Below, in pieces: positions 14,137 to 46,600 of a DNA stretch of 64,000 nucleotides. A program made the translations under genes and the position numbers. Under the pieces are notes generated by a model that ran no database searches, was not told the origin of the DNA, and saw nothing but the letters and a program-made list of their open reading frames with translations. The DNA is from Bacillus sp. NP157 (lineage in GTDB: Bacteria; Pseudomonadota; Gammaproteobacteria; Xanthomonadales; Rhodanobacteraceae). The stretch's first letter is position 1, and each line of letters begins with the position of its first letter. The DNA is taken from positions 3,844,001 through 3,908,000 of the forward strand of contig CP076546.1 of the NCBI GenBank assembly GCA_018889975.1. Direction: 5' to 3'.

Positions 14137-14297
14137 GTAGGAGCGCGCCTGCGCGCGAACGGGTGGCCTCGGGGGTGGGGCCCTGGATGGGCCTTTCCTC
14201 TATGGACCTTCCTTTGATGATCTGCCCCCCCGTGGAAAAACCATCTGAGGATGGAAAAACCATCTGAGGGGCAGGTCGCGCGCAGGCGCGCTCCTAC
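14137..14297. repeat. REP pair (BIME) with internal 18-bp tandem repeat
   Basis: GTAGGAGCGCGCCTGCGCGC at 14137 and its inverted copy ending at 14297 face each other. Between them TGGAAAAACCATCTGAGG occurs twice (14233-14250 and 14252-14269), one base apart. Non-coding spacer between the DUF971 gene and the next gene. Confidence 0.85.
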
Positions 14298-16332: not shown

Positions 16333-16336
16333 CGGC

Positions 16337-16870: not shown

Positions 16871-16954
16871 GGAGTCTTCGTTTTGGTATGGGGAACGAAG
16901 AAGGTGGGGCGCGACGGCACGGGAAGCAAGAGAGCGGGAGATGGGGGATGGGAA

Positions 16955-17000
16955 GTGGGGGCGCTACAACCCACTGCTGCGCGTATTCGTGCGCCCCCAC
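16955..17000. repeat. G-rich/C-rich inverted repeat between xerC and hslV
   Basis: GTGGGGGCGC (16955-16964) and GCGCCCCCAC (16991-17000) form a perfect 10-bp stem, inside longer imperfect purine-rich and pyrimidine-rich flanks from about 16925 to 17020. It may terminate xerC transcription or separate it from hslVU. Same style as the element at 8910-8971. Confidence 0.55.
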
Positions 17001-17023
17001 TCCCCACCCCCCCACCCCCTCTT

Positions 17024-17926
17024 TCAGCCCTTCCGCTTCGCCCGCGGATGAGCCGCGTCGTAGACCCGGGCCAGGTGCTGGAAGTCCAGGTGGGTGTAGA
17101 TCTGGGTCGTTGCGATGTCGGCGTGGCCGAGCAGCTCCTGCACCGAGCGCAGGTCGCCGGAGGATTCGAGCATGTGGCTGGCGAAGGTGTGCCGGAGCAT
17201 GTGCGGGTGGACGCGCTTGGCCTGGCCGCTGGAGAGTTTGGCCAGCCTGGCCTGCACGGTGCGCGGGCTGATCGGGCCGTCGCCGCGGCCCTTGAACACG
17301 GCCTGGCCAGGACCGACGCCCCCCAGGGCGGCCAGCGCGCGCAGGGCCGCGATGGCGAACCGGCCCACTGGCAGGATCCGCGTCTTGTTGCCCTTGCCGA
17401 GCACGCGGACCATGCCCTCTTCCATGTCCAGGTCGTCCCAGCGCAGGCCGCAGAGTTCGGACAGGCGCAGGCCGCTGGAATAGAACAGTTCCATCATGGC
17501 GGTGTCGCGCGGGGCCAGCGATCCGCCCAGGTTGGTCTCGACCAGTTCCTTGGCCTCGTCGGCATCCAGCACCTGGGGCAACTTGCGGCGCACTTTGGGA
17601 CCGCGCACGCCGGCGGCCGGGTCATGCGCCAGCTGGCCTTCGCGGGTGAGGTAGCGGAACAGGCTGCGGCAGGCGGAGAGCAGCCGCTGCAGGCTGGCCG
17701 GCTCCAGGCCGTCGTCGTGGCCCTTGCCACTGCCACGATGCTCGCGCGCCACCATGCTGCGTAGTCGCTCGGGCGACAGCGCATCGAATGAGCCAATGCC
17801 TTCGTGCTCCATGAAGCGGAGCAGTTTCTCCAGGTCGCGCCGGTAGGCGGCTAGGGTGTGGACAGACGGCGCGCGCTCGGCGGCGAAGTGGCGCAGGAAG
17901 GCCTCGACGGCCTCGCGCGGGATCAC
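17024..17926 (-). CDS. xerC: Tyrosine recombinase XerC
   Basis: 300 residues. N-terminal SAM-like core-binding domain, then the catalytic domain with Arg in SSGLRLSELCGLRWDD, Lys in GKGNKTR, HxxR in HMLRHTFASH, His in LLGHADIATTQIYTH and the nucleophile Tyr in IYTH. With XerD it resolves chromosome dimers at dif, activated by FtsK (also in this window). Overlaps the DUF484 gene by ATGA. Confidence 0.95.
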   Translation of the reverse strand: MIPREAVEAFLRHFAAERAPSVHTLAAYRRDLEKLLRFMEHEGIGSFDALSPERLRSMVAREHRGSGKGHDDGLEPASLQRLLSACRSLFRYLTREGQLAHDPAAGVRGPKVRRKLPQVLDADEAKELVETNLGGSLAPRDTAMMELFYSSGLRLSELCGLRWDDLDMEEGMVRVLGKGNKTRILPVGRFAIAALRALAALGGVGPGQAVFKGRGDGPISPRTVQARLAKLSSGQAKRVHPHMLRHTFASHMLESSGDLRSVQELLGHADIATTQIYTHLDFQHLARVYDAAHPRAKRKG

Positions 17927-30690: not shown

Positions 30691-31476
30691 GTGGCGGGCG
30701 TGTCCCGCAGCAGCTACTACGCCGGGCGGCGCGAGCGACGCGAGCGGACGATCGGGCCGGTGCTAGCCAAGGCTGCGCGGACGTTACACGAGCAGGGGCG
30801 ATGCAGCCTGGGGTCGCGCCGGCTGTCGGCGAGCTTGCGTAATCAGGGCCATGACGTTGGTCGCTACAGGGCCCGGACCCTGATCAAACAGCTGGGCCTG
30901 AAGCGTCGGCGCCGCCCGTACGCCCACTATCGACGAGCGACCAAGCCAGCCATCGTGGCCGACAACGACCTCAATCGCGAGTTTGATCCTGCCGCGCCGG
31001 ATGTGGCCTGGGCCGGTGACATCACGCAGGTTCGGGTGGGGCGGCGATGGCTGTATATCGCCATCGTGATGGACCTGTTTTCCCGGCGCATCGTGGGCTG
31101 GGCAACCGGCTCGATGGCCGATGCCTACCTGGCCGAGCAGGCTCTGGAGCTGGCACTGGCGCACCGGCAACCGCAGGGGCCACTGCTGTTCCACTCCGAC
31201 CAGGGCTGCCAGTACAGCGCGCAACGATTCGTCGACTTCCTCGCCCGGCGATCCATCCGGCAGAGCATGAGTCGCCGCGGAAACTGCTGGGATAACGCTG
31301 TCGTCGAACGCTTCTTCCACACCCTGAAACACGAATGGATGCCGACCAGTGGCTACGCGACGTTCGACGAGGCCACGAAGGACTTCTCCAGCTTCCTGAT
31401 CTATTACGACCAGCAGCGGCCGCACTCGCGGCTAAACGACGTGCCGCCAGCCACCTTCGAGTGGCTGGCGGCATAA
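30691..31476 (+). CDS. IS3-family transposase OrfB (DDE integrase domain)
   Basis: 261 residues from GTG 30691, but normally made as the C-terminal part of OrfAB. After a HTH_21-like region (HYRRATKPAIV) comes the rve domain with DDE residues: Asp in WAGDITQVR, Asp in LLFHSDQGCQYS and Glu in NAVVERFFHTLKHE. No internal stop or frameshift, so the enzyme looks intact. Confidence 0.92.
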   Translation: MAGVSRSSYYAGRRERRERTIGPVLAKAARTLHEQGRCSLGSRRLSASLRNQGHDVGRYRARTLIKQLGLKRRRRPYAHYRRATKPAIVADNDLNREFDPAAPDVAWAGDITQVRVGRRWLYIAIVMDLFSRRIVGWATGSMADAYLAEQALELALAHRQPQGPLLFHSDQGCQYSAQRFVDFLARRSIRQSMSRRGNCWDNAVVERFFHTLKHEWMPTSGYATFDEATKDFSSFLIYYDQQRPHSRLNDVPPATFEWLAA

Positions 31477-31515: not shown

Positions 31516-31568
31516 GGCGCGCTCCTACACGGGCATGCAGGCTGATGTAGGAGCGCGCCCGCGCGCGA
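31516..31568. repeat. Remainder of split REP plus a second REP
   Basis: Right part of the interrupted REP (to 31528) and, 18 bp further, a complete REP in the opposite orientation (31547-31568). Before the IS arrived this was a REP pair (BIME) between the UPF0149 and pirin genes. Confidence 0.85.
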
Positions 31569-33061: not shown

Positions 33062-33083
33062 TCGCGCGCGGGCGCGCTCCTAC
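33062..33083 (-). repeat. REP element supplying the stop codon of the glycosidase gene
   Basis: Inverted-orientation REP variant. The TAG of the minus-strand glycosidase (33080-33082) lies inside its conserved CTCCTAC end. Confidence 0.85.
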
Positions 33084-35866
33084 AGGGGGGCGGTCAGGGT
33101 CTTCTTGCCTTTGGGTAGCTGGATGTCGCCGCTGGGTAGCGACAGCACCAAACCACCCGGTGGATCGATCGGCTGGGTGATGGTGAGCACGGCCTTGCCG
33201 CCCTTCGCCTTCAGCGTGTAGCCGAGTCGGCCGTAGGGCGTGCGCAGGTCGCGCACCGCGATGCCGTCGCCGTCGAGCCACGTGGGTTGTACGCCGGCGG
33301 CGAGGACCATGGCCTGGTCTTCGTCGCGGTCGTAGGCGAACAGGTCGAGCGCCGAGCGCACGTAGTCCGATGCGATCCACGCGTGCGGCATGTCGCCGAC
33401 GAAGCGCGGCTTGCGCGGGTCGTGGCCGACCACTTCGGCCCACTGGTTCCAGGCGGCCGGGCGGCGATCGGCGAAGAAGAAGGCGATCAGGCCGTTCACC
33501 CGGTCACGCCAGCCGAGGCGGACGAAGGTCGCTATCGTGCGCAATTCGTAGGGCGTGTAGTCCTCCCACGCGAGCTTGCCGTCGCGGCGGTCCACGAAGG
33601 CCTGCCAGTATTTCTCGAACGTGCCTTCGACCAGCGCCTTTGGCAGGCGCGAGCCTTCGCCACCCGGCGATAGTGCGATGGTGGTCGACGTCGCATCGAA
33701 GTCGCCCAGTTCGGCAGAACCCGGGATGAAGTCCAGGCCCTTCGCCTTCACTGCCGCGTCGATCGACGCATGCAGGTCGGTGCGGAACGCATCGCGTGAG
33801 GCGCCGTACTTCGTGGCGTCGTCCGCATGCCCGAGCGCGGTGGCCAGGTCGGCGGCGTCTTCGTAACCCTTCAGTGCCCAGAAGTCGTCCCAATATGAAT
33901 GCATCGGCTTGGCCGAATAGCCTTCGTGGCTGATCGATGCGGGCATCAGGCCGTACAGTGCGCGATCGGCGCCTTGCAGGCGCGCCGGCTGGCGCTCGCT
34001 CTCGCGCAGCGTGTCCATGTAATCGGCCGCCTTGCGTACGTGCGGATACAGCGCCTCGACCGTCGCGCGGTCATGCGTGTAACGCCACAGCTCGGCCACG
34101 CTGAAGACCAGCTCACCATGGCTGTCGTTTTCCGGCACGGGATCCGAACCACGCGCATCCACGCAGCAAGGCACCTTGCCGTTGCTGAACTGGTGTGGCG
34201 CATACCAGGTGATGAATTCGCGCGCGACATCGTCATGGCCCGTGCGCAGCAGGCCCTCGAGCATCATCGCGCCATCGCGTACCCACGTCCGCGAATACGA
34301 ACGCGTGCCCGGCTGCAAGGCCGGACCATCGCGTGAAATCAGGATCTGCGCGACGCCACTCTTCATCGTGTCGACGATCGGTTGCGCGACCGACGGCACG
34401 CGCACATCGACGCGATTGAGCTTCTCGCGCCACAGCGCGGCGACGGCATCCGCATGCTCACCCAGCCACGCCGAAGCGTCCGCCGGCATCGCGACGGCAT
34501 CGTCCTGCTTCACCGGCACGACGAGGCCGAGGTCCACGTGCCCATGCGCCGGCACATGCACCGTGTAAACCAACGCCCCCTGCGCAAACCCCGATTCATC
34601 CACCAATCCAGCCGCCGCACCCGCACCCCCTGTAGGAGCGGGCCCGCCCGCGACATCTTTTAGCGAAAGCACGCCAATCCCCTCACCCCCCTCAACCCGC
34701 TCCACCAACATCTTCGGCAGGTTAGCCGACCCAATCACCCCGTCGGTCTTCTGCAGGGGAACGATCTTCCGATCCCCGTTCACCACCAGCGCCTTGCCAT
34801 CCCACGCCAGCTTGCGGATCGAAGCGATCCCACCCGGTGCATTGAGGAACTGCGTCGGCGGATTCACCTGGAACGGCCGTGCCGCCAGCATCAGGGTGAC
34901 GTCACGCGCTGCCGCGCCGTCATTGCCCACCCGGTACGACAAAACGAGCTCCGATGAGCCGGGCTCCCCTTGCGCGAAGGCCGTGGTCGTCAACGACAGC
35001 TCGCCCTTCTGCCACGCCACCGACGGCATCGGCAGGTAACGATCGCGCAGCGACTGCGTCGTGGTGACATCGGCCCACGTGACCAGCTTGCCGCCATCGA
35101 GCAGGAAGGGTTCGATGGAAAAACCGCCCCGAACGACTTCGACGGCGCCATCTTCGGAAATCAGCGCCGAATCACGGCTGCCGCCGTCCACGCCGACGAT
35201 GGTCCAGTACGACTGCTCGCCGGAGAAGCCGCGCGGATACAGGCCGCGACGGACCGCCTTCGCGCGCTGCTCGAACACGGCGTTCGGCGTCGGCGGCGGC
35301 ACGGGCACGGCTTCGGGCTTGCGTGGCACCAGGCGGAGGTTGTCGAAGCAGACCTCACCCTTGTCCGGGCCCATGCCTGGCTGCGCTTCCTTGTAGACCA
35401 TGAACTCGACCTCGCGCGTGTGGCGCAGGGTGCGGTCCTTGATCGGGCCCCAGGCAAACTCGACCTGGCGGCTGCTTGCGTCGATCGACTGCCATTGCGC
35501 CGACGGTACGAAGCCGGGCTTCTGGTACCACCACACGTTGTCACCGCTGTCGTCGATCAGTTTCAGCTGCAGCGTGTTCGCCGGCATGTCGCCGCGCACG
35601 TCGAAGCTCAGCGCGAAGCCATCGGGGAAATCGATCGGCAGCGTCTTGCGGATCGACGCGGCACCGGAGACACCGTTGAAATTGAACGCCAGGCAGACCG
35701 ACTGGCCGTTCTTGCCGGGCGCGGCATGCAGCGACGCGGAGACATCGTCGGTGTGGGTGGCTTGCCAGCCGGTGGTGGTGTCCAGGCCGTCGAGGGTCGC
35801 GGCGTGGGTCGCGCCACCCATGAGAAGCAACGCAATGCCCAGGAACAATGCACAGCTCTGGGACAA
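33080..35866 (-). CDS. Putative secreted (alpha/alpha)6-barrel glycoside hydrolase
   Basis: About 928 residues from a TTG at 35866 that keeps the hydrophobic signal ALFLGIALLLMGGATHA; the exact start is uncertain because the frame continues upstream through a REP element. Residues after the signal form a jelly-roll, carbohydrate-binding-like domain (LDGLDTTTGWQATHTDDVS...GFALSFDVRGDMP). Then come a beta-rich linker domain and a C-terminal six-hairpin region with SRTWVRDGAMMLEGLLRTG, GLMPASISHEGYS and WNQWAEVVGHD, resembling glucoamylase/GH63/GH78-type enzymes. Last gene of the minus-strand glycan operon, so probably an exo- or debranching enzyme on the same substrate as GH144. The precise family could not be fixed. 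Confidence 0.75.
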   Translation of the reverse strand: MSQSCALFLGIALLLMGGATHAATLDGLDTTTGWQATHTDDVSASLHAAPGKNGQSVCLAFNFNGVSGAASIRKTLPIDFPDGFALSFDVRGDMPANTLQLKLIDDSGDNVWWYQKPGFVPSAQWQSIDASSRQVEFAWGPIKDRTLRHTREVEFMVYKEAQPGMGPDKGEVCFDNLRLVPRKPEAVPVPPPTPNAVFEQRAKAVRRGLYPRGFSGEQSYWTIVGVDGGSRDSALISEDGAVEVVRGGFSIEPFLLDGGKLVTWADVTTTQSLRDRYLPMPSVAWQKGELSLTTTAFAQGEPGSSELVLSYRVGNDGAAARDVTLMLAARPFQVNPPTQFLNAPGGIASIRKLAWDGKALVVNGDRKIVPLQKTDGVIGSANLPKMLVERVEGGEGIGVLSLKDVAGGPAPTGGAGAAAGLVDESGFAQGALVYTVHVPAHGHVDLGLVVPVKQDDAVAMPADASAWLGEHADAVAALWREKLNRVDVRVPSVAQPIVDTMKSGVAQILISRDGPALQPGTRSYSRTWVRDGAMMLEGLLRTGHDDVAREFITWYAPHQFSNGKVPCCVDARGSDPVPENDSHGELVFSVAELWRYTHDRATVEALYPHVRKAADYMDTLRESERQPARLQGADRALYGLMPASISHEGYSAKPMHSYWDDFWALKGYEDAADLATALGHADDATKYGASRDAFRTDLHASIDAAVKAKGLDFIPGSAELGDFDATSTTIALSPGGEGSRLPKALVEGTFEKYWQAFVDRRDGKLAWEDYTPYELRTIATFVRLGWRDRVNGLIAFFFADRRPAAWNQWAEVVGHDPRKPRFVGDMPHAWIASDYVRSALDLFAYDRDEDQAMVLAAGVQPTWLDGDGIAVRDLRTPYGRLGYTLKAKGGKAVLTITQPIDPPGGLVLSLPSGDIQLPKGKKTLTAPL
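34632..34653 (+). repeat. REP-like sequence inside the glycosidase coding region
   Basis: GTAGGAGCGGGCCCGCCCGC and the next two bases match the REP head and palindromic layout, with CG pairs changed. It encodes a Gly/Ala/Pro-rich insertion (AGGPAPTGGAGAAAG) at a predicted loop of the glycosidase. Confidence 0.65.
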
Positions 35867-35877
35867 CGCAAACCCGT

Positions 35878-35970
35878 GTAGGAGCGCGCCTGCGCGCGAA
35901 CGATTTTCGCGCTGTACAGCAGGCCGTGAAGCGCCCTTCAAAAAGATGTCGCGCGCAGGCGCGCTCCTAC
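35878..35970. repeat. REP pair (BIME) between glycosidase and permease genes
   Basis: Perfect REP at 35878-35899 and inverted copy at 35949-35970, with a spacer that can form an imperfect hairpin. It lies inside the operon, between permease and glycosidase, and could reduce expression of the latter or protect the upstream mRNA. Confidence 0.88.
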
Positions 35971-35990
35971 GGGGGGTGTACGGCATGGGA

Positions 35991-36812
35991 TCAACCTTTG
36001 ACGCTGCCCAGCAGCAGGCCTTCGAGGTAGTAACGTTGCAGCGCGAGGAACAGCACCAGCACGGGCAGGATGGTGACGACCGAACCGGCCATCATCAACT
36101 CACTGTCCTGCACGTGTTCGCGTGACAGCGAGGCCAGTGCGATGGGCAGGGTGTAATGCTCCTGCCCGGTCAACGCGATCAGCGGCCACATGAAGTCGTT
36201 CCACGCGGCAAGGAAGGTGAAGATCGCCAGCGTCACCATGATCGGCTTCAGCAGCGGCATCACGATGGTGGCGAAGATGCGGAACTCGCCCGCGCCGTCG
36301 ATCCGCGCGGCTTCCATCAGGTCGTCCGGGATGCCGCTGGCATACTGGCGCACGAGGAAGATGCCGAAGATCGTCGCCAGCGCCGGCACGATGATCGCGC
36401 CGTAGGTGTTGACCAGGCCCATGTACTTCAGCAGCAGGAACAACGGCAGCATCGCCACCTGCGCGGGGATGACCAGCGCGCCGAGCAGCACCTGGAAAAG
36501 CCGTGCGCGCCCCTTGAACTCGAGCTTCGCGAACGCGTAGCCCGCCATCAGGTTGAACGCCAGCGAGACCAGCGTGATCACGGTGGAGATCAGCAGGCTG
36601 TTAAACAGGTAGCGGCCCATGCCCGCGTTCATGAACAGCTCGCGGTAGTTCGCCAGCGTCGCGTGCGTCGGCAGCACGGGCGGCGGCAGCGCGCTCGCCT
36701 CGCCCTGGGTCATGAACGATACGGAGACCATGTACAGCAGCGGCGCGATCGCGATGATCGACGCGGCGATGAGCAGGCCGTTGATGACGGCCTTGGCGAT
36801 GCGCGGGCTCAT
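35991..36812 (-). CDS. Carbohydrate ABC transporter permease (MalG type)
   Basis: 273 residues, six hydrophobic helices. The EAA loop EAARIDGAGEFRIFATIVMPLLKP is typical of the MalG/UgpE side of CUT1 transporters. ATGA overlap with the upstream permease gene shows coupling. Second inner-membrane half of the glycan oligosaccharide transporter. Confidence 0.94.
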   Translation of the reverse strand: MSPRIAKAVINGLLIAASIIAIAPLLYMVSVSFMTQGEASALPPPVLPTHATLANYRELFMNAGMGRYLFNSLLISTVITLVSLAFNLMAGYAFAKLEFKGRARLFQVLLGALVIPAQVAMLPLFLLLKYMGLVNTYGAIIVPALATIFGIFLVRQYASGIPDDLMEAARIDGAGEFRIFATIVMPLLKPIMVTLAIFTFLAAWNDFMWPLIALTGQEHYTLPIALASLSREHVQDSELMMAGSVVTILPVLVLFLALQRYYLEGLLLGSVKG

Positions 36813-37687
36813 GCCGGCTCTCCCCGCTTCGACAGGCGAAGCATCGTGGCGGTGACGGCGAACATGATGACGAACAGGATGAAGGCGACGGCGGAGGCCG
36901 AGCCGAGGTTCCACCACTTGAAGCCTTCCTCGTACATCAGGTACAGCACCGACGTCGTGCTCTGCAGCGGGCCGCCCTCGGTCATGACGTAGGGTTCGGC
37001 GAACAGCTGGAAGTAACCCGACACCGTGAGGATGCTCACCATCAGCATCGTCGGCCGGAGCATGGGCAGGGTGATATGGCGGAACTGCGCCCACGAGGAC
37101 GCGCCATCGATGCGCGCCGCCTCGTAAAGGTCGGCGGGAATCGCCTGCAGGCCAGCCATGAAGATGATCATGTTGTAGCCGAAGTTCTTCCACACCGCGA
37201 ACAGGATGATCGTCGGCATCGCCCAATGCGGATCGCCGAGCCAGTCCACCGTGGGCAGGCCGAGCGAACCCAGCGAATAGTTGACCAGGCCGTACTTGGT
37301 GTTGAACAGGTAACGCCAGATCACCGCAACGGCGACGACCGTGGTCACCACCGGGGCGAACAACGCCGTGCGGAAGAAGGGCTTGAACCGCGCCAGCGGC
37401 GAATTCAGCAGCATGGCCGCGCCCAGCGAGGCCATCAGCGACAGCGGCACGCCGACGACGACGAAGTACACGGTGTGGCCGAGCGCCGACCAGAACAGCG
37501 GACGCTGCAGCAGCGCCCAGTAGTTCTGCAGCGCGACGAAACGCAGGTTGCGGATGTCGGCCAGCGCGTAGAGGTCATAGTCGGTGACCGACAGCACCAG
37601 CGCGGCGACCACCGGCAGCAGGAAGAACAGGCCGAGGATGATCATCGCGGGGGTGATGAACAGCCACGCGGCGCGGGATGTGTTCAT
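36809..37687 (-). CDS. Carbohydrate ABC transporter permease (MalF type)
   Basis: 292 residues, six helices, with EAARIDGASSWAQFRHITLPMLRP as EAA loop. Start set at MNTSRAAWLF, overlapping the binding-protein stop by ATGA. No ATPase gene is in the locus, so a shared UgpC/MsmK-like ATPase elsewhere is expected. Confidence 0.94.
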   Translation of the reverse strand: MNTSRAAWLFITPAMIILGLFFLLPVVAALVLSVTDYDLYALADIRNLRFVALQNYWALLQRPLFWSALGHTVYFVVVGVPLSLMASLGAAMLLNSPLARFKPFFRTALFAPVVTTVVAVAVIWRYLFNTKYGLVNYSLGSLGLPTVDWLGDPHWAMPTIILFAVWKNFGYNMIIFMAGLQAIPADLYEAARIDGASSWAQFRHITLPMLRPTMLMVSILTVSGYFQLFAEPYVMTEGGPLQSTTSVLYLMYEEGFKWWNLGSASAVAFILFVIMFAVTATMLRLSKRGEPA

Positions 37688-38970
37688 GGCGTTGCCTTGT
37701 GGCCGTGGTCGAGCATCCAGCGGCGCTTTTCGAGGAGGCGGTCGGCGCGGCGGTCGATCTCTTCCGCGGCCTGGTCGATCGTGAGGTCGCCGTGCGCGGC
37801 TTGCGCGGCGACCAGCTGCATCTCGGTGACGATGCGTTCCCACTCCGCCACCGGCGGCGTCGGCTTCACCCGCTCGAGCTGGTCACGGAACGCCAGCGCC
37901 TTGTCGTCGTCGCGCAGCGCCGGGGCCTGCCACGAGGAACGACGCGGCGGCATGTCGCCGAGGATCTGGTAGAAACGGTCCTGGATCTCGGGACGCGAGA
38001 GGAATTCGATCAGCGCCCACGCATCGTCCTTGTGCTTCGACGCGCGGTAGATCACCAGGCTGGAGCCGCCCGCATTCGACGCACCGGGACCATCGGGGCC
38101 CGGCAGCGGCGTGGTGCCCCAGTCGCCCTGCTGTTCCGGCGGCAGGCGCTTGCGGAATTCGCCGATGTTCCACGGCCCGGACAGGTAGAACCCGTAGAAG
38201 CCCTGGCCGAACGCCGCCCACGGATTGCCGATGCCGACGTTGGTCATCATCGGCGCCTGCTGGTCCTTGAACAGCGAGACGTAGAACGCCAGCGCCTTCT
38301 TGAAGCCGGCGCTGCGGAAATTGCCGTAGCGGCCGTCGTCGCGCAGCAAGGGGTCCGGCTGCTGCAGGGCCAGCGCGAGCAGCTGTTCGAACTCGTTGGT
38401 CGGCAAGAGAACGCCATAGGCCTTGCCCCGCGGCTGGGCCATCTTCGCCATCATCGCCTGCCACTCCGCCCAGTCCTTCGGCGGGTGGTCGTAGCCGAGC
38501 TTCGCCAGCATGTCCTTGCGATAGAACAGCAGGCGCGTGTCGACGTACCAGGGCACGCCATACAGCGTGCCGTCGATGACGTTGGTCGACCAGATCGCCG
38601 GGAAGTAGTCCTTGCGGTCGACCACCTTCGACGCATTCACCCGTGAATCCAGCGGTTCCAGCGCGCCGAGCGCCACCATCTCCGGGATCCACGTATTACC
38701 CAGCTGGGTGATGTCCGGCGTGGAATCGCCGGCGTAGGCGGTCAGCAGCTTCTGGTGCGCCGCCGTCAGCGGCAGCTGCTGCACCACCACGTGCACGCCC
38801 GGGTGCTCGCGTTCGAACTCGGGCAGCAGCTTCTGCACGGCTTCGCCTTCGCGGCCGATCGTCCACAGCTGCAGTTCGCGCGAACCGTTCTCCGGTTGCG
38901 CGCACGAGGCCAGCGCCGCGCCGGCGAAGGCCAGCGCGACGGCAACGCGAATACGACGGGCGGCGCGCAT
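37684..38970 (-). CDS. Extracellular sugar-binding lipoprotein (CUT1 ABC transporter)
   Basis: 428 residues. Lipoprotein signal ending LASC (Cys23). The family-1 binding-protein sequence includes LLTAYAGDSTPDITQLGNTWIPE, LYGVPWYVDTRLLFYRKDML and AAFGQGFYGFYLSGPWNIGEF. Probably binds the oligosaccharides released by the GH144 enzyme. Start overlaps the GH144 stop (TGATG). Followed by two permeases. Confidence 0.93.
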   Translation of the reverse strand: MRAARRIRVAVALAFAGAALASCAQPENGSRELQLWTIGREGEAVQKLLPEFEREHPGVHVVVQQLPLTAAHQKLLTAYAGDSTPDITQLGNTWIPEMVALGALEPLDSRVNASKVVDRKDYFPAIWSTNVIDGTLYGVPWYVDTRLLFYRKDMLAKLGYDHPPKDWAEWQAMMAKMAQPRGKAYGVLLPTNEFEQLLALALQQPDPLLRDDGRYGNFRSAGFKKALAFYVSLFKDQQAPMMTNVGIGNPWAAFGQGFYGFYLSGPWNIGEFRKRLPPEQQGDWGTTPLPGPDGPGASNAGGSSLVIYRASKHKDDAWALIEFLSRPEIQDRFYQILGDMPPRRSSWQAPALRDDDKALAFRDQLERVKPTPPVAEWERIVTEMQLVAAQAAHGDLTIDQAAEEIDRRADRLLEKRRWMLDHGHKATP

Positions 38971-40457
38971 CACCACAGGGTGGAAGCCGTCTCGGCGTCG
39001 AGCCAGCCACCAGTGAAGCCGGCGCGCTGCAGGCCCTTGCGGACATACGGGTTCTTCTTCATCACGTTCCAGACGAACTCGCTGCGGTAGTTCTCGATCA
39101 TCAGCACGATCGGGCCCTGGTCGATGCCCAGGTGCACGGTATCGGCCCAACCGAAGCCCGGCACCAGCTGGCCGGTACGCAGGTCGGTGCGCGTATCGAA
39201 GCTGAGGTTGAACGCGTCGACGAAGCCGTACTTGGTGAAGATGTACTTGCCGTACTTCTTCTTCATCTCTTCCAGCGCCGGGATCACGATTTCCGGGGCG
39301 AAGGCGATCGAACCACCGGCCGCGGTCGGCACGATGGTGCCGTCGTCGGAGATGTAGTCCAGGCCGGCGCCGCGCGCCGTATAGCCCTGGAACGTGCGTT
39401 CCTTGTCGCCCTGCTTGATGATCAGGCCGCCGGGGCCGTTGCTGGCGGTGAGGCCCCATGTGTTCTTGTCGTAACCCTTCCAGCCGCCGGGGTTAGCGAT
39501 GGCATAGGCCTGCTGCGAATACGTGGCGCGACGGCTGTTCTCGAAATAGTCCAGGCCCTTCTCGCGGTTCCACGCATCCTTGATGCCGCGGAAATCGACC
39601 CACGCATGGCTGTACTGGTGGCCGAACATCGGCGCGAAGTTCAGGAAGGTCTGCCCGTGGAATTCGCCCCAGGTCCTGTCGTAGGTCTTCGTCCAGGCCT
39701 GCCATGCATCGTCGCCCAACGGGTGGGTCGGCGAGCCCAGCGCGAGGATGTAGACCAGCATGCCTTCGTTGTAGCCCTGCCAGTCGTGCGGGATGGCCTT
39801 GCCACCCGGCGTCCAGCCCATGCTGATCAGCGGCGCGTTGTGCTGCAGCCAGGTCCAGTCGACGCGACGGTAGATCTGGTCGGCGAGGTCGCGGATTTCC
39901 TTTTCCTTCGCCGTGTCGTGGTCGTAGTAGCTCTGCGCGAACAGCACGCCGCCGAGCAGCAGCGTCGTATCCACCGACGACACTTCGACCCAGCGCGCGA
40001 AGCGCTTGCCGGTCTTCATGTCGAGGAAGTGGTAGTAGAAGCCATGGAAGCCGGTGGCATCGTCTTCCGAATCGTTCTGCGCCGACTCATTGAAGAACTT
40101 CAGCGTGGCCAGCGTTCGATCCACCGCCTGCTCGCGGGTGACGTACCCACGCTCGACGCCGACGCCGTAAGCGGTGAGGCCGAAGCCCACCGACGCGATC
40201 GAAGCAAACGAGTTGGTCGGGTAATGGTCGGGGATCAGGCCGTTGTCGGGGTTGGCGCTGTCCCAGAACCACTGGAAGGTGCGCTTCTCGAGGTCAGCGA
40301 TCATCGGCGATACCGGGTGCAGGTCCTTGCCGATCGCGGCCGCCGGGGTATGTCCCTTCGCGGCTTTCTGCGCGTCGCGGGCCATGGCCATCGGTGCGGT
40401 GCAGGCCAGCAGGGCGGCCAGGGCGAGGGTCAGGCGCTTGGTGGTCGAAGCTTTCAT
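38970..40457 (-). CDS. GH144-type glucanase (glucoamylase-like domain, PF10091)
   Basis: 495 residues. Sec signal peptide (cleavage near AMAR, residue 26), then the glucoamylase-like domain: RTFQWFWDSANPDNGLIPD, VGFGLTAYGVGVERGYVTRE, GFYYHFLDM, VSSVDTTLLLGGVL, ILALGSPTHPL, YSHAWVDFRG and TASNGPGGL. These match GH144, whose characterised members are endo-beta-1,2-glucanases. First gene of a five-gene operon (this, binding protein, two permeases, large glycosidase) with a LacI-type operator upstream. Specificity for beta-1,2-glucan is inferred from family. Confidence 0.88.
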   Translation of the reverse strand: MKASTTKRLTLALAALLACTAPMAMARDAQKAAKGHTPAAAIGKDLHPVSPMIADLEKRTFQWFWDSANPDNGLIPDHYPTNSFASIASVGFGLTAYGVGVERGYVTREQAVDRTLATLKFFNESAQNDSEDDATGFHGFYYHFLDMKTGKRFARWVEVSSVDTTLLLGGVLFAQSYYDHDTAKEKEIRDLADQIYRRVDWTWLQHNAPLISMGWTPGGKAIPHDWQGYNEGMLVYILALGSPTHPLGDDAWQAWTKTYDRTWGEFHGQTFLNFAPMFGHQYSHAWVDFRGIKDAWNREKGLDYFENSRRATYSQQAYAIANPGGWKGYDKNTWGLTASNGPGGLIIKQGDKERTFQGYTARGAGLDYISDDGTIVPTAAGGSIAFAPEIVIPALEEMKKKYGKYIFTKYGFVDAFNLSFDTRTDLRTGQLVPGFGWADTVHLGIDQGPIVLMIENYRSEFVWNVMKKNPYVRKGLQRAGFTGGWLDAETASTLW

Positions 40458-40516
40458 GGGGGGAGGTCCTTGGAACTGTTTCGAGGCTAACGCGAACCGC
40501 GTGGGGACGGTGTTCG

Positions 40517-40530
40517 CGTAAACGTTTACG
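40517..40530. promoter_or_regulatory. LacI-family operator upstream of the GH144 operon
   Basis: CGTAAACGTTTACG is a perfect 14-bp palindrome with the central CG of LacI/GalR-family sites. It lies 60 bp before the GH144 start. A near-identical site precedes the lacI gene at 46575. Confidence 0.8.
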
Positions 40531-40540
40531 TCGCGAGGCC

Positions 40541-40561
40541 AGAAGAAGGCCCCGAAGGGCC
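40541..40561 (-). terminator. Intrinsic terminator of the halogenase gene
   Basis: Read on the minus strand: GGCCC, UUCG tetraloop, GGGCC, then TTCTTCT. It lies about 60 bp after the halogenase stop and before the GH144 operator, so it separates the two transcription units. Confidence 0.65.
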
Positions 40562-40620
40562 CTGGTCGAAGCCAAAACCATACGGGGCGCCACCCCCGGT
40601 GTCCATGGCCGGGACAGCTT

Positions 40621-42141
40621 TCATGCGGCCACCGGCGGCGCCGCGCACTCGCGGGCGATGAATTGCTCGTGGGTCGGCATCAGGTCGACGTTTTTGGAGA
40701 CGATATCGCGCACGCTGGCGAGGAAGCGGGGCAGGTCCGCGTCCGGCATCTGGTCCACCAGCGGGTGGTAGCCGGTGGGCATGATCCCCTGGCCGACCAT
40801 CACCTGGACCCAGCTTGTCAGGGCGAACATTTCCTCAGCATTACGGAAGAAGCGGCCGCTGTGCCGGAACAGGTCGATGTTCGCCTGCAACGACTCCGGG
40901 ATCGGCATCGTGCGGCAGTGGTTCCAGAACGCGCTGTCGTCGCGCTCGGTGGCCTTGTAATGCAGCACGAGGAAGTCGCGGATCCGCTCGGCTTCGAAGC
41001 GGGCCTGCTCGTTGTAGCGGTCGACCAGCACCGGATCGATGTCACCCGTGGCCGGGAACAGCTGCAGCAGCCGCGAGATGCCCGACTGGATCATGTGGAT
41101 CGAGGTGGATTCCAGCGGCTCCATGAAGCCGCTCGACAGGCCCAGCGCCACCACGTTGCGCATCCACGCCTTGCGCCGGATACCGGTGGTGAAGCGCAAC
41201 GGACGCGGATCGGCCAGTGCCTCGCCATCGAGGTTGGCCAGCAGCGTGGCGGCCGCCTCGTCGTCGCTGATGAACCGGCTGGAGTAGACGTAGCCGTTGC
41301 CGGTGCGATGCTGCAGCGGGATCCGCCACTGCCAGCCGGCGCTGCGCGCGGTGCTACGCGTATACGGCGTCGGCGGGCCCACCTTGGCGCAGGGCACGGC
41401 CAGCGCGCGATCGCACGGCAGCCACTCGCTCCAGTCTTCGTAGCCGGCCTTGCAGGTGCCTTCGATCAACAGGCCGCGGAAGCCGCTGCAGTCGATGAAC
41501 AGATCGCCTTCCACGCGCTCGCCGTTTTCAAGGCGCACCGCGGTGACATGGCCATTGTCCGGATTGGTCTCGACCTCGCGCACCTTGCCTTCGGTACGGC
41601 GCACGCCAAGCTGTTCGGCGTACTCGCGCAGGAACCGCGCATAGAGCGCCGCGTCGAAGTGATAGGCGTAGGCGATGCTACCGAGCGGGTTGCTCGCGGG
41701 TACGTCCACCGGCGCCGGCATGAACTTGCCGCGCATCGCGGCCACGGTGTTGACCGAGTAATCGAGCAGGTCGGCAGCCTGTCCACGCAGGCGGCCTTTG
41801 ATCCAGTACTGGTGGAACGGCACCATGCCCACGTCGTGGCCCATCGTGCCAAAGCCGTGCACGTAACTGTCGCCGATGCGATTCCAGTCACGGAACTCGA
41901 TGCCCATCTTGAAGGTGCCCTGCGTGCGCGCGACGAACTGCGCTTCATTCAGGCCCAACAGCTGGTTGAACGCCTTGATATGGGGAACGGTGGCTTCACC
42001 GACCCCGACGATGCCGATCTCGTCGGATTCGACCAGGCGGATCGTCGCCTGCCGGTTCAGTGTGCGCGCAAGGGCCGAAGCAGCCATCCAGCCGGCGGTA
42101 CCGCCGCCGACGACAACGATATTCGTGATGCCAGTGCCCAT
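40621..42141 (-). CDS. Flavin-dependent tryptophan-halogenase-like protein
   Basis: 506 residues. FAD motif GGGTAGW (12-18), GEATVPHIKAFNQLLG, the catalytic-lysine segment GTFKMGIEF (Lys78, equivalent to PrnA Lys79), the halogenase signature GWQWRIPLQHRTGNGYVYS, and FMEPLESTSIHM with the conserved Glu. All key residues for halogenation are present. It follows the TonB-dependent receptor on the same strand; such pairs are common in Xanthomonadales and Caulobacter carbohydrate loci, where the natural substrate is unknown. A few homologues halogenate indole in vitro. Confidence 0.93.
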   Translation of the reverse strand: MGTGITNIVVVGGGTAGWMAASALARTLNRQATIRLVESDEIGIVGVGEATVPHIKAFNQLLGLNEAQFVARTQGTFKMGIEFRDWNRIGDSYVHGFGTMGHDVGMVPFHQYWIKGRLRGQAADLLDYSVNTVAAMRGKFMPAPVDVPASNPLGSIAYAYHFDAALYARFLREYAEQLGVRRTEGKVREVETNPDNGHVTAVRLENGERVEGDLFIDCSGFRGLLIEGTCKAGYEDWSEWLPCDRALAVPCAKVGPPTPYTRSTARSAGWQWRIPLQHRTGNGYVYSSRFISDDEAAATLLANLDGEALADPRPLRFTTGIRRKAWMRNVVALGLSSGFMEPLESTSIHMIQSGISRLLQLFPATGDIDPVLVDRYNEQARFEAERIRDFLVLHYKATERDDSAFWNHCRTMPIPESLQANIDLFRHSGRFFRNAEEMFALTSWVQVMVGQGIMPTGYHPLVDQMPDADLPRFLASVRDIVSKNVDLMPTHEQFIARECAAPPVAA

Positions 42142-42172
42142 CGCGTATGAACCGTCAGGTGGGAATAAGAAA

Positions 42173-42238
42173 GGCGCCCGCGGGGAGACTCGCGGGCGCG
42201 AAGGGGATGCATCCGGCTTTTGCCCACCGGATGCATCC
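42173..42238 (-). terminator. Two tandem stem-loops between receptor and halogenase genes
   Basis: GGATGCATCCGG (42205-42216) and CCGGATGCATCC (42227-42238) form a perfect 12-bp stem; GCGCCCGCG (42174-42182) and CGCGGGCGC (42191-42199) a 9-bp stem. On the minus strand the second stem is followed by CTTTCTTATT, so it probably terminates part of the receptor transcript and lowers halogenase expression. Confidence 0.7.
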
Positions 42239-42261
42239 GTACCACGTACGCTTTTCGAACC

Positions 42262-45200
42262 TTAGAACTTGAAGCCGGCGGTGAAGCGCGCTTCGCGGGG
42301 AACGCCCGTGATGTTGCCCTTCTTGTTGTACGCGACTTCGGTACCGGTACCGTTCGGGGTGTAGTCCGCGTAGTTCTTCCAGTTGAACACGTTGAGCACG
42401 TCGAAGCGGATGTAGAACTTGGTCTGGTCGTTCTCGCTGAGCAGGAAGTCCTTGGTCGCCTGGATGTCGATCTGGCGATAACCCCAGATCTTGCCGCCCA
42501 GCAGGAACTTCGAGCCGCCCGGCACGCCCGAGGTCGGGAACGAACCTTCGCCGTGTTCGAACGTGCAACCCGTGCCGCAGGTGAGGAAGCCGTTCCACGG
42601 CAGCGGGGTGGCGAGGATCAGCTTGCTCGAGAAGGTGAAGCCCCACGGACCGTCCAGCGAGCCAGTGGCGACGAAGCGATGCTTCGCGGCCGCGTTCGAG
42701 GTCACGAACGGATAGTCGAAGATCGTGGCTTCGTCGAACGAGTAATGCTCGTTGATGTCACGGTTCTGGCGCGAGTGGGTGTAGGTGTAGGCGAAGTTCG
42801 CGCTCCAGCCCGACTCATGCGTGTACGGCTTGTCAGCCGACAGCAGGACCTGGGTGGTGGCGGTGCGGATGCCGTTGTTGCCGACGATCATCGAACCGAA
42901 GCCCGGGATGCCGTTGTTCCACGGCTGCGAGCCTGCCTGGAAGAAGTCGCCGTTCGGGTAGCGGTTGCCGAGGGTGAAGGCGAAGCCGTCGTACGACAGC
43001 ACGCGGGTCACCGTGGCGTCCGTGTTCCAGTCGCCGACCTTGTTCGACATGCCGATGCTGAACTGGTCCGAATACGGAGCCTTCAGGTTGTTGTTGAGCA
43101 TGTCAACTTCCTGGCCCAGGTTCGTGCCGTTGACCAGGCCCTGGAGCACCGGGAGACCGTTGAGGAACGACGGATCCCACGCGAAGCAGCTGTTTGCGCC
43201 CACGGTGCAGGGGTGGCTGGCCGTGTTGATGTTGATCGTCTGGTACGGCAGCGCGGACTTGGTCTGCTCGAGCTGCAGGTAGTCGTACAGGTTACGGTCG
43301 TAGGAACGGCCGGCACCCGCATGGATCACGTGCGCTTCGTCGGCGAACAGGTCATACGACGCACCGAGGCGCGGGGCCCACTGGTTCTGCGCATGGCGGT
43401 TGCTGCCGTTGCTGATGTAGTCCTGGTAGTTGATGCCACCCTTCGCCAGCGTCTGCGCGTAGGTCTGGCCCGGGAACAGGCCCTGGGCGTTCGGGTCAAG
43501 CGAGTTGAACGCGTTGACCACGTTCTCCGGGGTCACCCAACCGAGGTACGACGGGGTCTTTTCCTTGTCCCAGCGCACGCCGATGTTCAGGGTCAGGTGG
43601 TCGTTGACCGACCAGTCGTCCTGCAGGTATGCGCCGTACTGCTTGTCCTTCGTCTCGGACACCGCGTTCAGGCCCGGCACCGGGTTGGAGAACTGCACCT
43701 TGTACGGGATAGCTTCGACGCCATTGGTATCGACGTTGTAGGTGTACTGCGGGTTGACCGACTGTGCGTCCTGCGCGTGCAGGGTCACTTCCTTCACCTT
43801 GAAGCCGGTCTTGATGACGTGGTCGCCCATCCATTCAAGATCGTTGAAGGTGAAGTCGTCCTGCAGCGACGGTCCTTCCTGGCCCTTGATCTGGGTAGCC
43901 AGCGGCGACGCGGCGCCGATGCCGATGAAGGTGGCGTCGTTCGACGGGTGCCAGCTGTAGTTGTAGCCGTTGCCGTAGTTGAGCGGGAGCGGATCGTTCG
44001 AGGAGTTCTCGTACGTCGCCTTCAGCTCGTTGAAGTACCAGTCACCACTGTGCTGCCAGCGGAACGCGCCACGGGTGTCGTGGTTCGCGGTGAGGATGGA
44101 CTGCGACAGCGACTGGCCCGGGCCGATATTGTCGGACTGGGTTTCGCGGCGGACCTGGGTGCTGATCTCGATACGATCGCGGTCGCTGAATTCCCAGTCG
44201 ATCTTGCCGAAGTACAGCTTCTCGTCGAACGGCAGCGAGGCCGGGCCGAACGCGCTCTGCACGTTGGCCGGCAGCGCGCTGACGGCGGCATCGGGTACGC
44301 CACCACCCGGGCTGACCGTGATCGGCGTATCGAACTTCTTCTGCTCGAAGGTCACGAAGAAGTGCATCTGGTCCTTGATGATCGGACCACCGAGGGCGAA
44401 GCCGTATTCCTTCTCGAACGAACGGGCCTTGTCGCCGTCCTCTTCGGCCGGGGTGCGGCTGCGGTACTTGTCCGAGGTGTAGGTATCGAACACTTCACCG
44501 TGGAACTCGTTCGTGCCCGACTTGGTCTCGGCGGTGATCGCCGCCGAGGATACCTGGTCGTACTCGGCCTTGTAGTTCGTGGTGATGACCTTGTACTCGC
44601 CGATGGCGAGCTGCGGGAACGGGTTGCCCTGGCTGTTGACCTGGCCCGACACGCCGCCTGCCTTCACGTAGCTCTTCTGGCCCACGCCGTCGATGAAGAC
44701 GTTGACCGAGCTGTCGTTCTGCGCACCACCGCGCAGCGAGGTGTGGCCCTGCGCGTCCACGCTGAACACCATGCCCGGCACGGTATCGGCGAATTCGAGG
44801 AAGTTGCGCGACACCTGCGGGATGGTCTGGATCTGGCGCAGCGAAATCGTCTTCGAGACTTCCGGCGTCTTCACTTCGGTCAGCGTCGATGCGTTGACCG
44901 TCACGCCTTCCATCGAGGTGGCGTTGGCTGCAGTGGCAGCGGCCGGCGACGACGCGGCGAGGTTGAGCGAGGCGGTGGACGCCACGGTCAGCGTCACGTT
45001 CTGCTGCGTGCCCGGGCCGGCATCGACCTGGTAGGTCGCCGGCGGCAGGCCGTTGATGATGTAGTTACCGTCGGAGCCCGCGGTGGCCTTGCGGGTGAGG
45101 CCGGTCTGCGGGTTGAACGCAGTGACCTGCGCGCCCGGCGTGGCCTTGCCCTTCAGGGTGGCGGTGACGGTCTGGGCCATCGTGGCGGTCGGCGCAACGA

Positions 45201-45267
45201 CCGCGGCGATGCTGGCGGCGATGACGCCGCACAGCAGTTTCTTCTTCATCTGCATCGGAGCTTTCAT
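42262..45267 (-). CDS. TonB-dependent receptor, Oar-like with N-terminal carboxypeptidase-regulatory domain
   Basis: 1001 residues from MKAPMQMKKKLLCGV, which has a purine-rich ribosome binding site. Signal peptide to about residue 32, a CarboxypepD_reg domain (TATLKGKATPGAQVTAFNPQTG...GSDGNYIINGLPPATYQVD), a plug (VSRNFLEFADTVPGMVF...LRGGAQNDSSVNVFIDGVGQ) and a beta-barrel ending in aromatic F-K-F. Outer-membrane uptake of large ligands; by context the glucan or its oligosaccharides. Upstream open frame beyond this ATG has no signal logic. Confidence 0.93.
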   Translation of the reverse strand: MKAPMQMKKKLLCGVIAASIAAVVAPTATMAQTVTATLKGKATPGAQVTAFNPQTGLTRKATAGSDGNYIINGLPPATYQVDAGPGTQQNVTLTVASTASLNLAASSPAAATAANATSMEGVTVNASTLTEVKTPEVSKTISLRQIQTIPQVSRNFLEFADTVPGMVFSVDAQGHTSLRGGAQNDSSVNVFIDGVGQKSYVKAGGVSGQVNSQGNPFPQLAIGEYKVITTNYKAEYDQVSSAAITAETKSGTNEFHGEVFDTYTSDKYRSRTPAEEDGDKARSFEKEYGFALGGPIIKDQMHFFVTFEQKKFDTPITVSPGGGVPDAAVSALPANVQSAFGPASLPFDEKLYFGKIDWEFSDRDRIEISTQVRRETQSDNIGPGQSLSQSILTANHDTRGAFRWQHSGDWYFNELKATYENSSNDPLPLNYGNGYNYSWHPSNDATFIGIGAASPLATQIKGQEGPSLQDDFTFNDLEWMGDHVIKTGFKVKEVTLHAQDAQSVNPQYTYNVDTNGVEAIPYKVQFSNPVPGLNAVSETKDKQYGAYLQDDWSVNDHLTLNIGVRWDKEKTPSYLGWVTPENVVNAFNSLDPNAQGLFPGQTYAQTLAKGGINYQDYISNGSNRHAQNQWAPRLGASYDLFADEAHVIHAGAGRSYDRNLYDYLQLEQTKSALPYQTININTASHPCTVGANSCFAWDPSFLNGLPVLQGLVNGTNLGQEVDMLNNNLKAPYSDQFSIGMSNKVGDWNTDATVTRVLSYDGFAFTLGNRYPNGDFFQAGSQPWNNGIPGFGSMIVGNNGIRTATTQVLLSADKPYTHESGWSANFAYTYTHSRQNRDINEHYSFDEATIFDYPFVTSNAAAKHRFVATGSLDGPWGFTFSSKLILATPLPWNGFLTCGTGCTFEHGEGSFPTSGVPGGSKFLLGGKIWGYRQIDIQATKDFLLSENDQTKFYIRFDVLNVFNWKNYADYTPNGTGTEVAYNKKGNITGVPREARFTAGFKF

Positions 45268-45445
45268 GGTACCCCTCTCTCCCAATCTTCTTCTGTGTGT
45301 ATGACCCGGTCCGGCTGGGCGTGGGCACGGCGGGCAGCCTTGCGGCTGCGTCGCGGTGGTCATCGCCACCTCTTTGAAAGGCGATCTGTCCCCGTACCCC
45401 CGCCCGTTCCGCATCGCGGACCGAATGGTTTTCGCTATCCATCAA

Positions 45446-45506
45446 TGACGCCGTCCTGGGTTACTGCCACGGCCCGGCAAGCCGCGTACTGCCAACGACG
45501 GCGTCA
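45446..45506. terminator. Perfect 10-bp inverted repeat at the lacI end
   Basis: TGACGCCGTC (45446-45455) and GACGGCGTCA (45497-45506) enclose 41 bp and overlap the lacI stop. Either the lacI terminator or part of the receptor leader; no T-run. Confidence 0.45.
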
Positions 45507-46526
45507 GCCGTGTCGTCGCGCCTTGTCGTTGGCGCCACACGAGGCGCGTACGACGAGTTCGGTGCCGACGACGACGCGCGGTTCGGGCGCGGCGTCCTCG
45601 GGTGCTTCGATCATGCGGGCCAGGCGATCCAGCGCGGCCTCGCCCAGTTCGGCGATACGCACGCGCACCGTGGTGAGCGGCGGCGAGACGTAACGCGACA
45701 TCGGGATATCGTCAAAGCCGGTCACGGCGATGTCGTCGGGCGCCGGTACGCCCGCTTCGGCCAGCGCGGAAAGCGCGCCAATGGCCATCATGTCGTTGGC
45801 GGCGAAGATCGCATCCGGGCGCGGCGACATCGCCAGCACCTGCTTGGCCATGCGATAGCCGGACTCTTCGGTGAAGTCGCCCTGCAGGACCACGGCGGTG
45901 TCGCCCAGGCCAGCGGCCTCGAGGCCTTCGCGGTAACCGCGGCAGCGCTCCTGCACGTCGTGGTTCACTTCCGGGCCGGCGATGAACACGATGCGCTTGC
46001 GGCCGCTGCCGATCAGGTGATCGACCATCGCCTTCGCGCCGCCGAAATCGTCGACGTCGAGCGCGGCATGGCGTTCGCTGCGTACGTGGCTGTTGATCAG
46101 CACGGTCGGCAGGACGATCGGCAGGTTCTCGTCGAGGAAGGCAGCATCGGCGTGCGGCGACATCACCAGCAGGCCGTCCACGCGGCCCTGCATCGCACGC
46201 AGGGCGATCGCGGCTTCGGTGGCGTCGCCGTGCGAACTGGACACCAGCAGGTAGAGCCCACGTGCCCGGGCGGCCAGGTCGATGCCGCGGATCAGTTCGG
46301 AGAAGAACGCGCCATGCAGGTCGGGTAGCAGGGCGCCGATGGTCTGGGTGCGACGGGTGATCAGGCTACGCGCCGCGCTATGCGGCACGTAGCGCAGGCG
46401 GGTGGCGACCTCGCGAATGCGCTTCTGCGTTTCGGCCGTCACGCCACCGTGCCCATTCAGGGCACGCGATACGGAGGCCACCGACACGTTGGCCATCCTC
46501 GCGACGTCTTTGATCGTCACACTCAC
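45504..46526 (-). CDS. LacI-family transcriptional regulator
   Basis: 340 residues, GTG start. N-terminal helix-turn-helix VTIKDVARMANVSVASVSRALNG with the hinge helix VPHSAARSLITRRT, then a periplasmic-binding-protein-like sensor domain. Probably represses the receptor/halogenase and GH144 operons until a glucan-derived sugar binds. Its own promoter region contains the same operator type as the GH144 operon, implying autoregulation. Confidence 0.94.
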   Translation of the reverse strand: MSVTIKDVARMANVSVASVSRALNGHGGVTAETQKRIREVATRLRYVPHSAARSLITRRTQTIGALLPDLHGAFFSELIRGIDLAARARGLYLLVSSSHGDATEAAIALRAMQGRVDGLLVMSPHADAAFLDENLPIVLPTVLINSHVRSERHAALDVDDFGGAKAMVDHLIGSGRKRIVFIAGPEVNHDVQERCRGYREGLEAAGLGDTAVVLQGDFTEESGYRMAKQVLAMSPRPDAIFAANDMMAIGALSALAEAGVPAPDDIAVTGFDDIPMSRYVSPPLTTVRVRIAELGEAALDRLARMIEAPEDAAPEPRVVVGTELVVRASCGANDKARRHG

Positions 46527-46571: not shown

Positions 46572-46600
46572 AACGTAAACGTTTTCAGACAACGTGTAAA
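46572..46600 (-). promoter_or_regulatory. lacI promoter with overlapping LacI operator
   Basis: On the minus strand TTTACA (46595-46600) and TACGTT (46572-46577) are spaced by 17 bp. The operator-like GTAAACGTTTTC (46575-46586, two changes from the perfect GTAAACGTTTAC) overlaps the -10 and spacer, the position expected for autorepression. The -10 is weak. Confidence 0.55.

Follow-up and report, generated by a model that had tools for sequence, protein, structure and literature searches.

Bacteria produce beta-1,2-glucans, which play roles in symbiosis, osmoregulation and plant disease. Published knowledge of their consumption was found mainly enzyme by enzyme. Extracts of a report on Xanthomonas campestris describe beta-1,2-glucan hydrolysis by XCC2207 (XcSGL; PDB entry 8XUL), the only component of that system said there to have been assayed (PMC12102758). 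The lin1839 cluster of Listeria innocua combines ATP-binding cassette (ABC) import of beta-1,2-glucooligosaccharides with the GH3 enzyme Lin1840, while SGR_2423-2427 of Streptomyces griseus holds an ABC importer, a beta-1,2-preferring GH1 enzyme and a member of an endo-beta-1,2-glucanase family (extracts of PMC12369401). The sux-type carbohydrate utilization (CUT) loci of Xanthomonas unite TonB receptor, inner-membrane transporter, degrading enzyme and regulator (extracts of PMC1790865). Here we analyze a window of 64,000 nucleotides from Bacillus sp. NP157 (CP076546.1, positions 3,844,001 to 3,908,000), the genome of which is a single contig of 4.88 Mb with genus relatives in Luteibacter, and is counted as Luteibacter below. 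Eight genes at window positions 33080-46526, all on the minus strand, very probably constitute a beta-1,2-glucan utilization locus of the TonB-receptor CUT kind, for which we propose a whole Gram-negative pathway. To the known enzymes this would add a dispersed regulon, a likely reassignment of the Xanthomonas protein Xac-MalE, and one conserved glycosidase family without assignment.

Beta-1,2-glucan is well supported as the substrate because of the likeness of two proteins to XCC2207 and to the Listeria binding protein Lin1841, respectively. The GH144 endo-beta-1,2-glucanase, so assigned by homology (38970-40457, minus strand; PF10091, 2.4e-82; signal-like N-terminus), is closest to 8XUL in a PDB sequence search (E = 3e-187), with 5z06 (1e-50) and 5gzh (4e-48) also matched. 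Its residues E231, F278 and Y359 align, within the same ungapped stretch and at the same spacing, with E239, F286 and Y367 of XcSGL, given as clan-defining in the extracts of PMC12102758; similarity over the catalytic domain and these three residues place it in GH144. The solute-binding lipoprotein (SBP; 37684-38970, minus strand; Pfam, 2.2e-43; lipobox-like LASC) matches 3UOR of X. citri (2e-155), then Lin1841 (2.5e-64), then acarbose and maltose binders (GacH at 1.9e-35 and weaker). Lin1841, a binder of beta-1,2-glucooligosaccharides (extracts of PMC12369401), is its nearest homologue with a characterized ligand, and the Xanthomonas 'MalE' (3UOR) is likely to be a binder of beta-1,2-glucooligosaccharides as well. 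Along this line, the six-hairpin gene of a Duganella locus (L059) is followed on the same strand by genes for GH1, GH94 and a MalK ATPase, and this GH94 protein finds its nearest match in the GH94 portion of cyclic beta-1,2-glucan synthase (2.4e-256; one Duganella locus was scanned). Other flanks hold glucokinase, GH1 and MalK (L067) or MalK and an ILVD_EDD dehydratase (L119). An earlier sequence-only reading had already named beta-1,2-glucan as the probable substrate, and these homologies bear it out.

The gene order given in that reading is likewise confirmed by open reading frames (ORFs) and Pfam, and a codon-usage gene finder, the training set of which included five of the genes, chose the same eight. 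All on the minus strand, they encode a LacI-family regulator (45504-46526; PF00356/PF13377, RbsR/PurR-like, below the NCBIfam cut-offs), a TonB-dependent receptor (42262-45267; N-terminal CarboxypepD_reg domain, Pfam barrel match 2.8e-47), a flavin-dependent tryptophan-halogenase-like protein (40621-42141), the GH144 enzyme, the SBP, two CUT1 permeases of UgpA/MalF type (36809-37687) and UgpE/MalG type (35991-36812), both by Pfam and NCBIfam, and a secreted, GH15-related six-hairpin glycosidase (33080-35986). GH144 and SBP genes overlap by 1 base, SBP and permease 1 as well as permease 1 and permease 2 by 4 bases each, as in an operon. The signal-like N-termini of GH144, six-hairpin enzyme and receptor, and the SBP lipobox, were judged by eye. 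With an SBP and two distinct permeases the block has the makings of a CUT1 importer, and with receptor, inner-membrane transporter, degrading enzyme and regulator those of a TonB CUT locus. None of the eight proteins matches SusD (Pfam, E up to 0.1), so the block does not qualify as a SusC/SusD polysaccharide utilization locus. The receptor has no plug domain match in Pfam, which resembles the case of X. campestris XCC2208, for which no canonical plug domain is listed (extracts of PMC1790865).

For comparison we used the best 80 of at least 567 confirmed relatives of the six-hairpin gene, from a scan of named genomes. In 76 of these 80 loci the GH144 and SBP genes are accompanied by those of both permeases and of the six-hairpin enzyme, and the grouping is therefore not due to chance. 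In the four exceptions, L058, L111 and L114 (pieces of 7-16 kb) are without a GH144 match and L092 (a 12-kb piece) is without a six-hairpin ORF match. The loci derive mainly from Luteibacter, Rhodanobacter, Dyella, Xanthomonas, Lysobacter, Stenotrophomonas, Pseudoxanthomonas, Luteimonas and Duganella, and from metagenome bins. The string GYNE recurs in the GH144 protein of 71 of 77 loci.

A LacI-type operator accompanies these genes. In the window an exact copy, GTAAACGTTTAC, is located at 40518-40529, 60 bp upstream of the GH144 start, and a site with one mismatch to GTAANCGNTTAC at 46575-46586, upstream of lacI. Throughout the 80 loci the palindrome GTAAnCGnTTAC has 69 exact sites, compared to 0-14 for 11 palindromes of the same composition; with up to one mismatch it has 190, compared to 4-71 for these controls. 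With up to one mismatch allowed, and ORFs starting less than 260 bases from the edge of a locus excluded, the stretch from -250 to +150 of the ORF start holds a site for lacI in 53 of 55 loci, for GH144 in 40 of 77 and for the receptor in 17 of 65. The corresponding figures are 1/77 for the SBP, 2/79 and 1/79 for the permeases, 0/79 for the six-hairpin gene and 0/13 for the halogenase. The set was extended to 89 loci (the 80, eight with GH144 only, and the malK region of the host), with a site window of -300 to +60. Here separately transcribed MalK genes have the site at their start in 28 of 30 loci (misses are L110 and L174) and GH1 genes in 19 of 31, random windows in 3.5%; MalK proteins at least 55% and GH1 proteins at least 50% identical to the Lysobacter ones were counted, which leaves out, e.g., the MalK of Duganella L059. 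The host genome has nine exact sites and one for the reversed pattern. Three of the nine lie before GH144, between malK and the glucokinase gene glk, and approximately 100 bp before a GH3 gene; the remaining six are at G000:C1:339406, 1594559, 2440626, 3326789, 3559288 and 3672008. This suggests that GTAAnCGnTTAC marks a dispersed LacI regulon, the host malK/glk and GH3 units included.

Two of these sites may be recorded in their own right. That at 1594559 is found 64 bp before a short regulator-like gene. In L176, a GH144 locus without six-hairpin gene, an exact site at 17840 lies upstream of a GH39-family gene (16222-17715, minus strand).

The block was previously described as self-contained, which is wrong because its eight genes include neither an ATPase nor a beta-glucosidase gene. 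That the CUT1 transporter has no ATPase holds for the block itself; the idea of a transporter lacking any ATPase was dropped, as a candidate of MalK type was located elsewhere in the genome. This protein (approximately 3464549-3465646, about 410 kb from the locus) is 66% identical to the MalK of a Lysobacter locus, whose match runs four codons beyond the ATPase stop. Its gene is divergent from that of a glucokinase, and the exact operator between the two is in the malK promoter. The GH3 gene (approximately 3700232-3702409) encodes a protein with no visible leader, and the host genome is without a match to the Lysobacter GH1. Because operators lie at these unlinked malK/glk and GH3 units, it is probable that the importer receives its ATPase, and the pathway its last enzyme, in trans and under the regulator of the locus, and we infer from the same sites which ATPase and which beta-glucosidase would serve it.

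In the proposed pathway the TonB receptor would admit the glucan, which GH144 would cut in the periplasm into short beta-1,2-glucooligosaccharides. Their import would fall to the lipoprotein and both permeases, energized by the MalK-type ATPase encoded beside glucokinase. In the cytosol the GH3 beta-glucosidase would split them to glucose (in relatives often GH1, and GH1 together with GH94 in Duganella L059), and glucokinase would phosphorylate the glucose released. LacI presumably represses the units through GTAAnCGnTTAC until an oligosaccharide appears. The six-hairpin enzyme, to which a separate and much more tentative role is given below, would act in the periplasm and remove alpha-linked glucose refractory to GH144 and the beta-glucosidases.

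Several observations weigh against parts of this picture. One control palindrome reached 14 exact sites and 71 with one mismatch, and the operator counts are inflated by kinship because related loci are not independent. The GH1 gene has no operator in 12 of 31 loci, including the Duganella loci in which it follows the six-hairpin gene. The six further host sites adjoin genes without evident link to the pathway, as judged from N-terminal sequences only. Moreover, 6r5i, a 'periplasmic beta-glucosidase', matches the host GH3 better (7e-178) than does the beta-1,2-active Lin1840 (6e-149). Finally, 3UOR (Xac-MalE), the nearest PDB homologue of the SBP, is named a putative maltose/trehalose binder.

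That name implies a locus importing maltodextrins or another alpha-glucan, to which MalFG/Ugp-like permeases and a GH15-like six-hairpin enzyme would also be suited. However, GH144 is a family of beta-1,2-glucanases, the SBP resembles Lin1841 far more than it does maltose binders, the enzymes that bear the operator or flank the loci are GH1, GH3 and GH94, and 3UOR is entered in two tables as an apo structure or with an unknown ligand. We rejected a maltose importer as the principal interpretation on the grounds of the GH144 family, the SBP and the GH1/GH3/GH94 partners, and consider alpha-glucan import very improbable. A recycling role, in which the cell degrades its own cyclic beta-1,2-glucans and not those of others, deserves more weight, although we still hold it to be somewhat unlikely. 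The host may itself synthesize such a glucan: the product of G000:C1:1319544-1327847 (L034 9545-17848), 2767 residues long, combines GH94 and PF10091 parts like a cyclic glucan synthase, and no glycosyltransferase family was matched in it at the 1e-6 limit. A second argument for recycling comes from X. citri. Extracts of PMC9108719 name the GH3 gene XAC1448 and the membrane protein gene XAC2312 as the only two in the overlap of phoP and low osmotic stress. XAC1448 resembles the host GH3 in having GH3 plus Fn3-like domains. X. citri is stated to be without GH1 (extracts of PMC10714752). XAC2312 is described as a TonB receptor of 109 kDa (extracts of PMC7748154) and was lowered in a quorum-sensing comparison (PMC6337780). 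The receptors of two Xanthomonas loci compute to 108.5 kDa. By its locus number, XAC2312 may be the X. citri receptor of this locus. Against recycling, its deletion or overexpression had no clear effect on growth (extracts of PMC9108719), and a TonB receptor together with a LacI regulator suits an exogenous supply. The locus may serve either recycling or the scavenging of other bacteria's glucans that the earlier reading suggested.

The six-hairpin protein had been called a large glycosidase of unclear family, and this stands insofar as PF00723 (GH15) is matched neither by the window protein nor among the ten families matched by 43 homologues, so that no family can be assigned by Pfam; a profile comparison relates it to GH15. 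The window protein itself has marginal matches only, PF17389 at 1.7e-4 (below cut-off) and TIGR01577 at 6.5e-5. Among the 43 homologues, PF17389 is matched in 31 (best 8.4e-7), F5/8C in 31 and GDE_C in 13 (best 2.5e-6). In the comparison of catalytic-domain profiles, GH15 scored 89.6% over 326 columns and a mixed set of glycogen debranching enzymes (GDE) 95.6% over 182 columns, its parts alone giving 11.2%, 65.3% and 1.5%; GH78 reached 20% and GH94 3%, whereas none of GH1, GH144 and the three unrelated controls exceeded 1%. In the hhalign alignment to GH15, W-x-RD falls on W-x-RD and the Glu of 'SEE' on that of WAEV, in register. The 'SEE' Glu serves as the catalytic base in GH15. The proposed catalytic residues are Glu688 (SISHEGYS) and Glu851 (WNQWAEVV) in ORF numbering, both invariant in the 43 sequences, of which the acid Glu688 is aligned less surely than the base Glu851. 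We see in the enzyme a GH15-related glycosidase that is probably inverting.

From its start at 35986 the ORF runs across a REP-like inverted repeat (35878-35970), and by eye the mature protein of 906 residues probably starts near 35800. This repeat, a pair GTAGGAGCGC / GCGCTCCTAC between permease 2 and the six-hairpin gene, recurs in the window at 14137/14288, 51416/51520 and 63628/63778, and in opposite order at 31519/31547. About 1.6 kb off the end of the locus, an IS3-type transposase-like ORF (rve and HTH_21) is present at 30691-31476.

Among 197 genomes of the host family, GH144 occurs in 151, the six-hairpin gene in 53 and a GH1 orthologue in 103, and all 53 and all 103 fall inside the 151 (hypergeometric p = 5e-8 for the 53, uncorrected for kinship). 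The GH1 figure derives from 110 genomes at 1e-60, less seven with a match of only 37-46% identity (G047, G059, G079, G103, G114, G141 and G189); with these restored, 105 of 110 have GH144. A six-hairpin profile search of 398 genomes across the phylum gave 21 matches, 12 of them strong (E below 1e-200), the host included. A paralogue, 33-39% identical and with an F5/8C domain, is encoded in the host at G000:C1:1286813-1289881 (L033 8814-11882). In G057 a paralogue (L132 8191-11328) is divergent from the lacI of a like locus, with one exact and one one-mismatch operator between them.

We tentatively propose that the enzyme cleaves alpha-linked glucose, e.g., the alpha-1,6 bond of alpha-1,6-cyclized beta-1,2-glucans, because of its GH15/GDE likeness, its optional occurrence within GH144 genomes, and the existence of such glucans (extracts of PMC11842490 and PMC11228985). 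It might then, with the same reservation, be the founder of a new GH family: a periplasmic, inverting enzyme that acts on the lone alpha-1,6 bond, or on alpha-capped ends, after GH144 has opened the ring, and so completes the LacI regulon. If so, Xanthomonadales and Duganella could consume alpha-1,6-cyclized beta-1,2-glucans, among them that required by Xanthomonas for infection, and what becomes of this known infection factor could then be tested.

The proposal has to face several difficulties. The enzyme is missing from 98 of the 151 GH144 genomes, and no operator was found within the 19-kb stretch around its host paralogue. The 27 PDB sequences matched at E up to 1 all miss the catalytic domain, the matches being confined to N-terminal binding domains, and a first PDB search had given chance matches only. 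The profile sets are uneven (17 sequences for GH15, 7 for GDE, 4 for GH78 and 1 for GH94, at a query effective number, Neff, of 2.0), and their unequal sizes favour GH15 in the comparison. Beta-glucans are substrates of some (alpha/alpha)6 enzymes, and the protein could instead be a periplasmic exo-acting beta-1,2-glucan hydrolase that releases glucose or sophorose behind GH144. We regard this as slightly less plausible than the alpha-linkage proposal and, on balance, doubtful. It would fit the restriction to GH144 genomes (53 of 53), and also the Luteibacter genomes, of which 19 of 19 have the six-hairpin gene and 0 of 19 a GH1 orthologue (G047 has a 46% identical homologue), as if it partly replaced GH1. 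Yet the catalytic domain is closer to the GH15/GDE alpha-glucosidases than to GH94 (a single sequence), the operator-bearing host GH3 could do that job, and outside Luteibacter 30 of 34 six-hairpin carriers also have a GH1 orthologue, so that no replacement is apparent there.

A general replacement of GH1 by the six-hairpin enzyme was rejected. It had been suggested by six of eight GH144 loci lacking the six-hairpin gene, which have GH1 and MalK nearby (L170-L174, L176). Across the 151 genomes with GH144 the two enzymes tend weakly to avoid each other (both in 30, six-hairpin only in 23, GH1 only in 73, neither in 25; Fisher p = 0.029), and this tendency vanishes without Luteibacter (30, 4, 73 and 25, respectively; p = 0.15). 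Carriers without GH1 orthologue are all 19 Luteibacter genomes and G011, G128, G158 and G184, some genomes being incomplete.

The halogenase-like protein carries the PF04820 domain of tryptophan halogenases (1.3e-201) and belongs to the locus only optionally, being found in 13 of the 70 loci with both receptor and GH144. In Luteibacter it accompanies receptors 75-87% identical to that of the window (7 loci) and is absent at 56-66% identity (5 loci), a hint that its link is with the receptor and not with the sugar. A role in glucan chemistry was rejected as unsupported, given this optional occurrence and its association with receptor type in Luteibacter.

The earlier suggestion of an undescribed system does not extend to the core enzyme GH144, which is already known; for the locus as a whole, its operator and the six-hairpin enzyme, no account was found in the PMC full texts, from which many papers are absent. 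Close known systems are found in Xanthomonas. In X. campestris, XCC2207 is a close homologue of the window GH144 with the same clan residues, and by its number the receptor XCC2208 is adjacent. The Xanthomonas loci L068, L071, L074, L075 and L081 hold lacI, receptor, GH144, SBP, two permeases and six-hairpin gene together as here, but differ in having no halogenase and a diverged receptor (about 40-47% identity). GH15 enzymes (glucoamylase, glucodextranase) share with the six-hairpin protein the profile match and the W-x-RD and base-Glu motifs in register; in contrast, the N-terminal domains are others and PF00723 is unmatched. Within its own family, 31 of 43 aligned homologues have an F5/8C-like domain, whereas the window protein is without it. 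Compared to sux-type CUT loci, the host locus uses an ABC importer, and its ATPase and candidate last enzyme are unlinked. The Listeria cluster has an SBP homologous to that of the host and, like the host, a GH3 enzyme; however, it belongs to a Gram-positive bacterium with no TonB receptor, and the extracts of PMC12369401 name neither GH144 nor a six-hairpin enzyme. In the likewise Gram-positive S. griseus, the endoglucanase belongs to GH193 (extracts of the same paper), unlike the GH144 enzyme of the locus described here.

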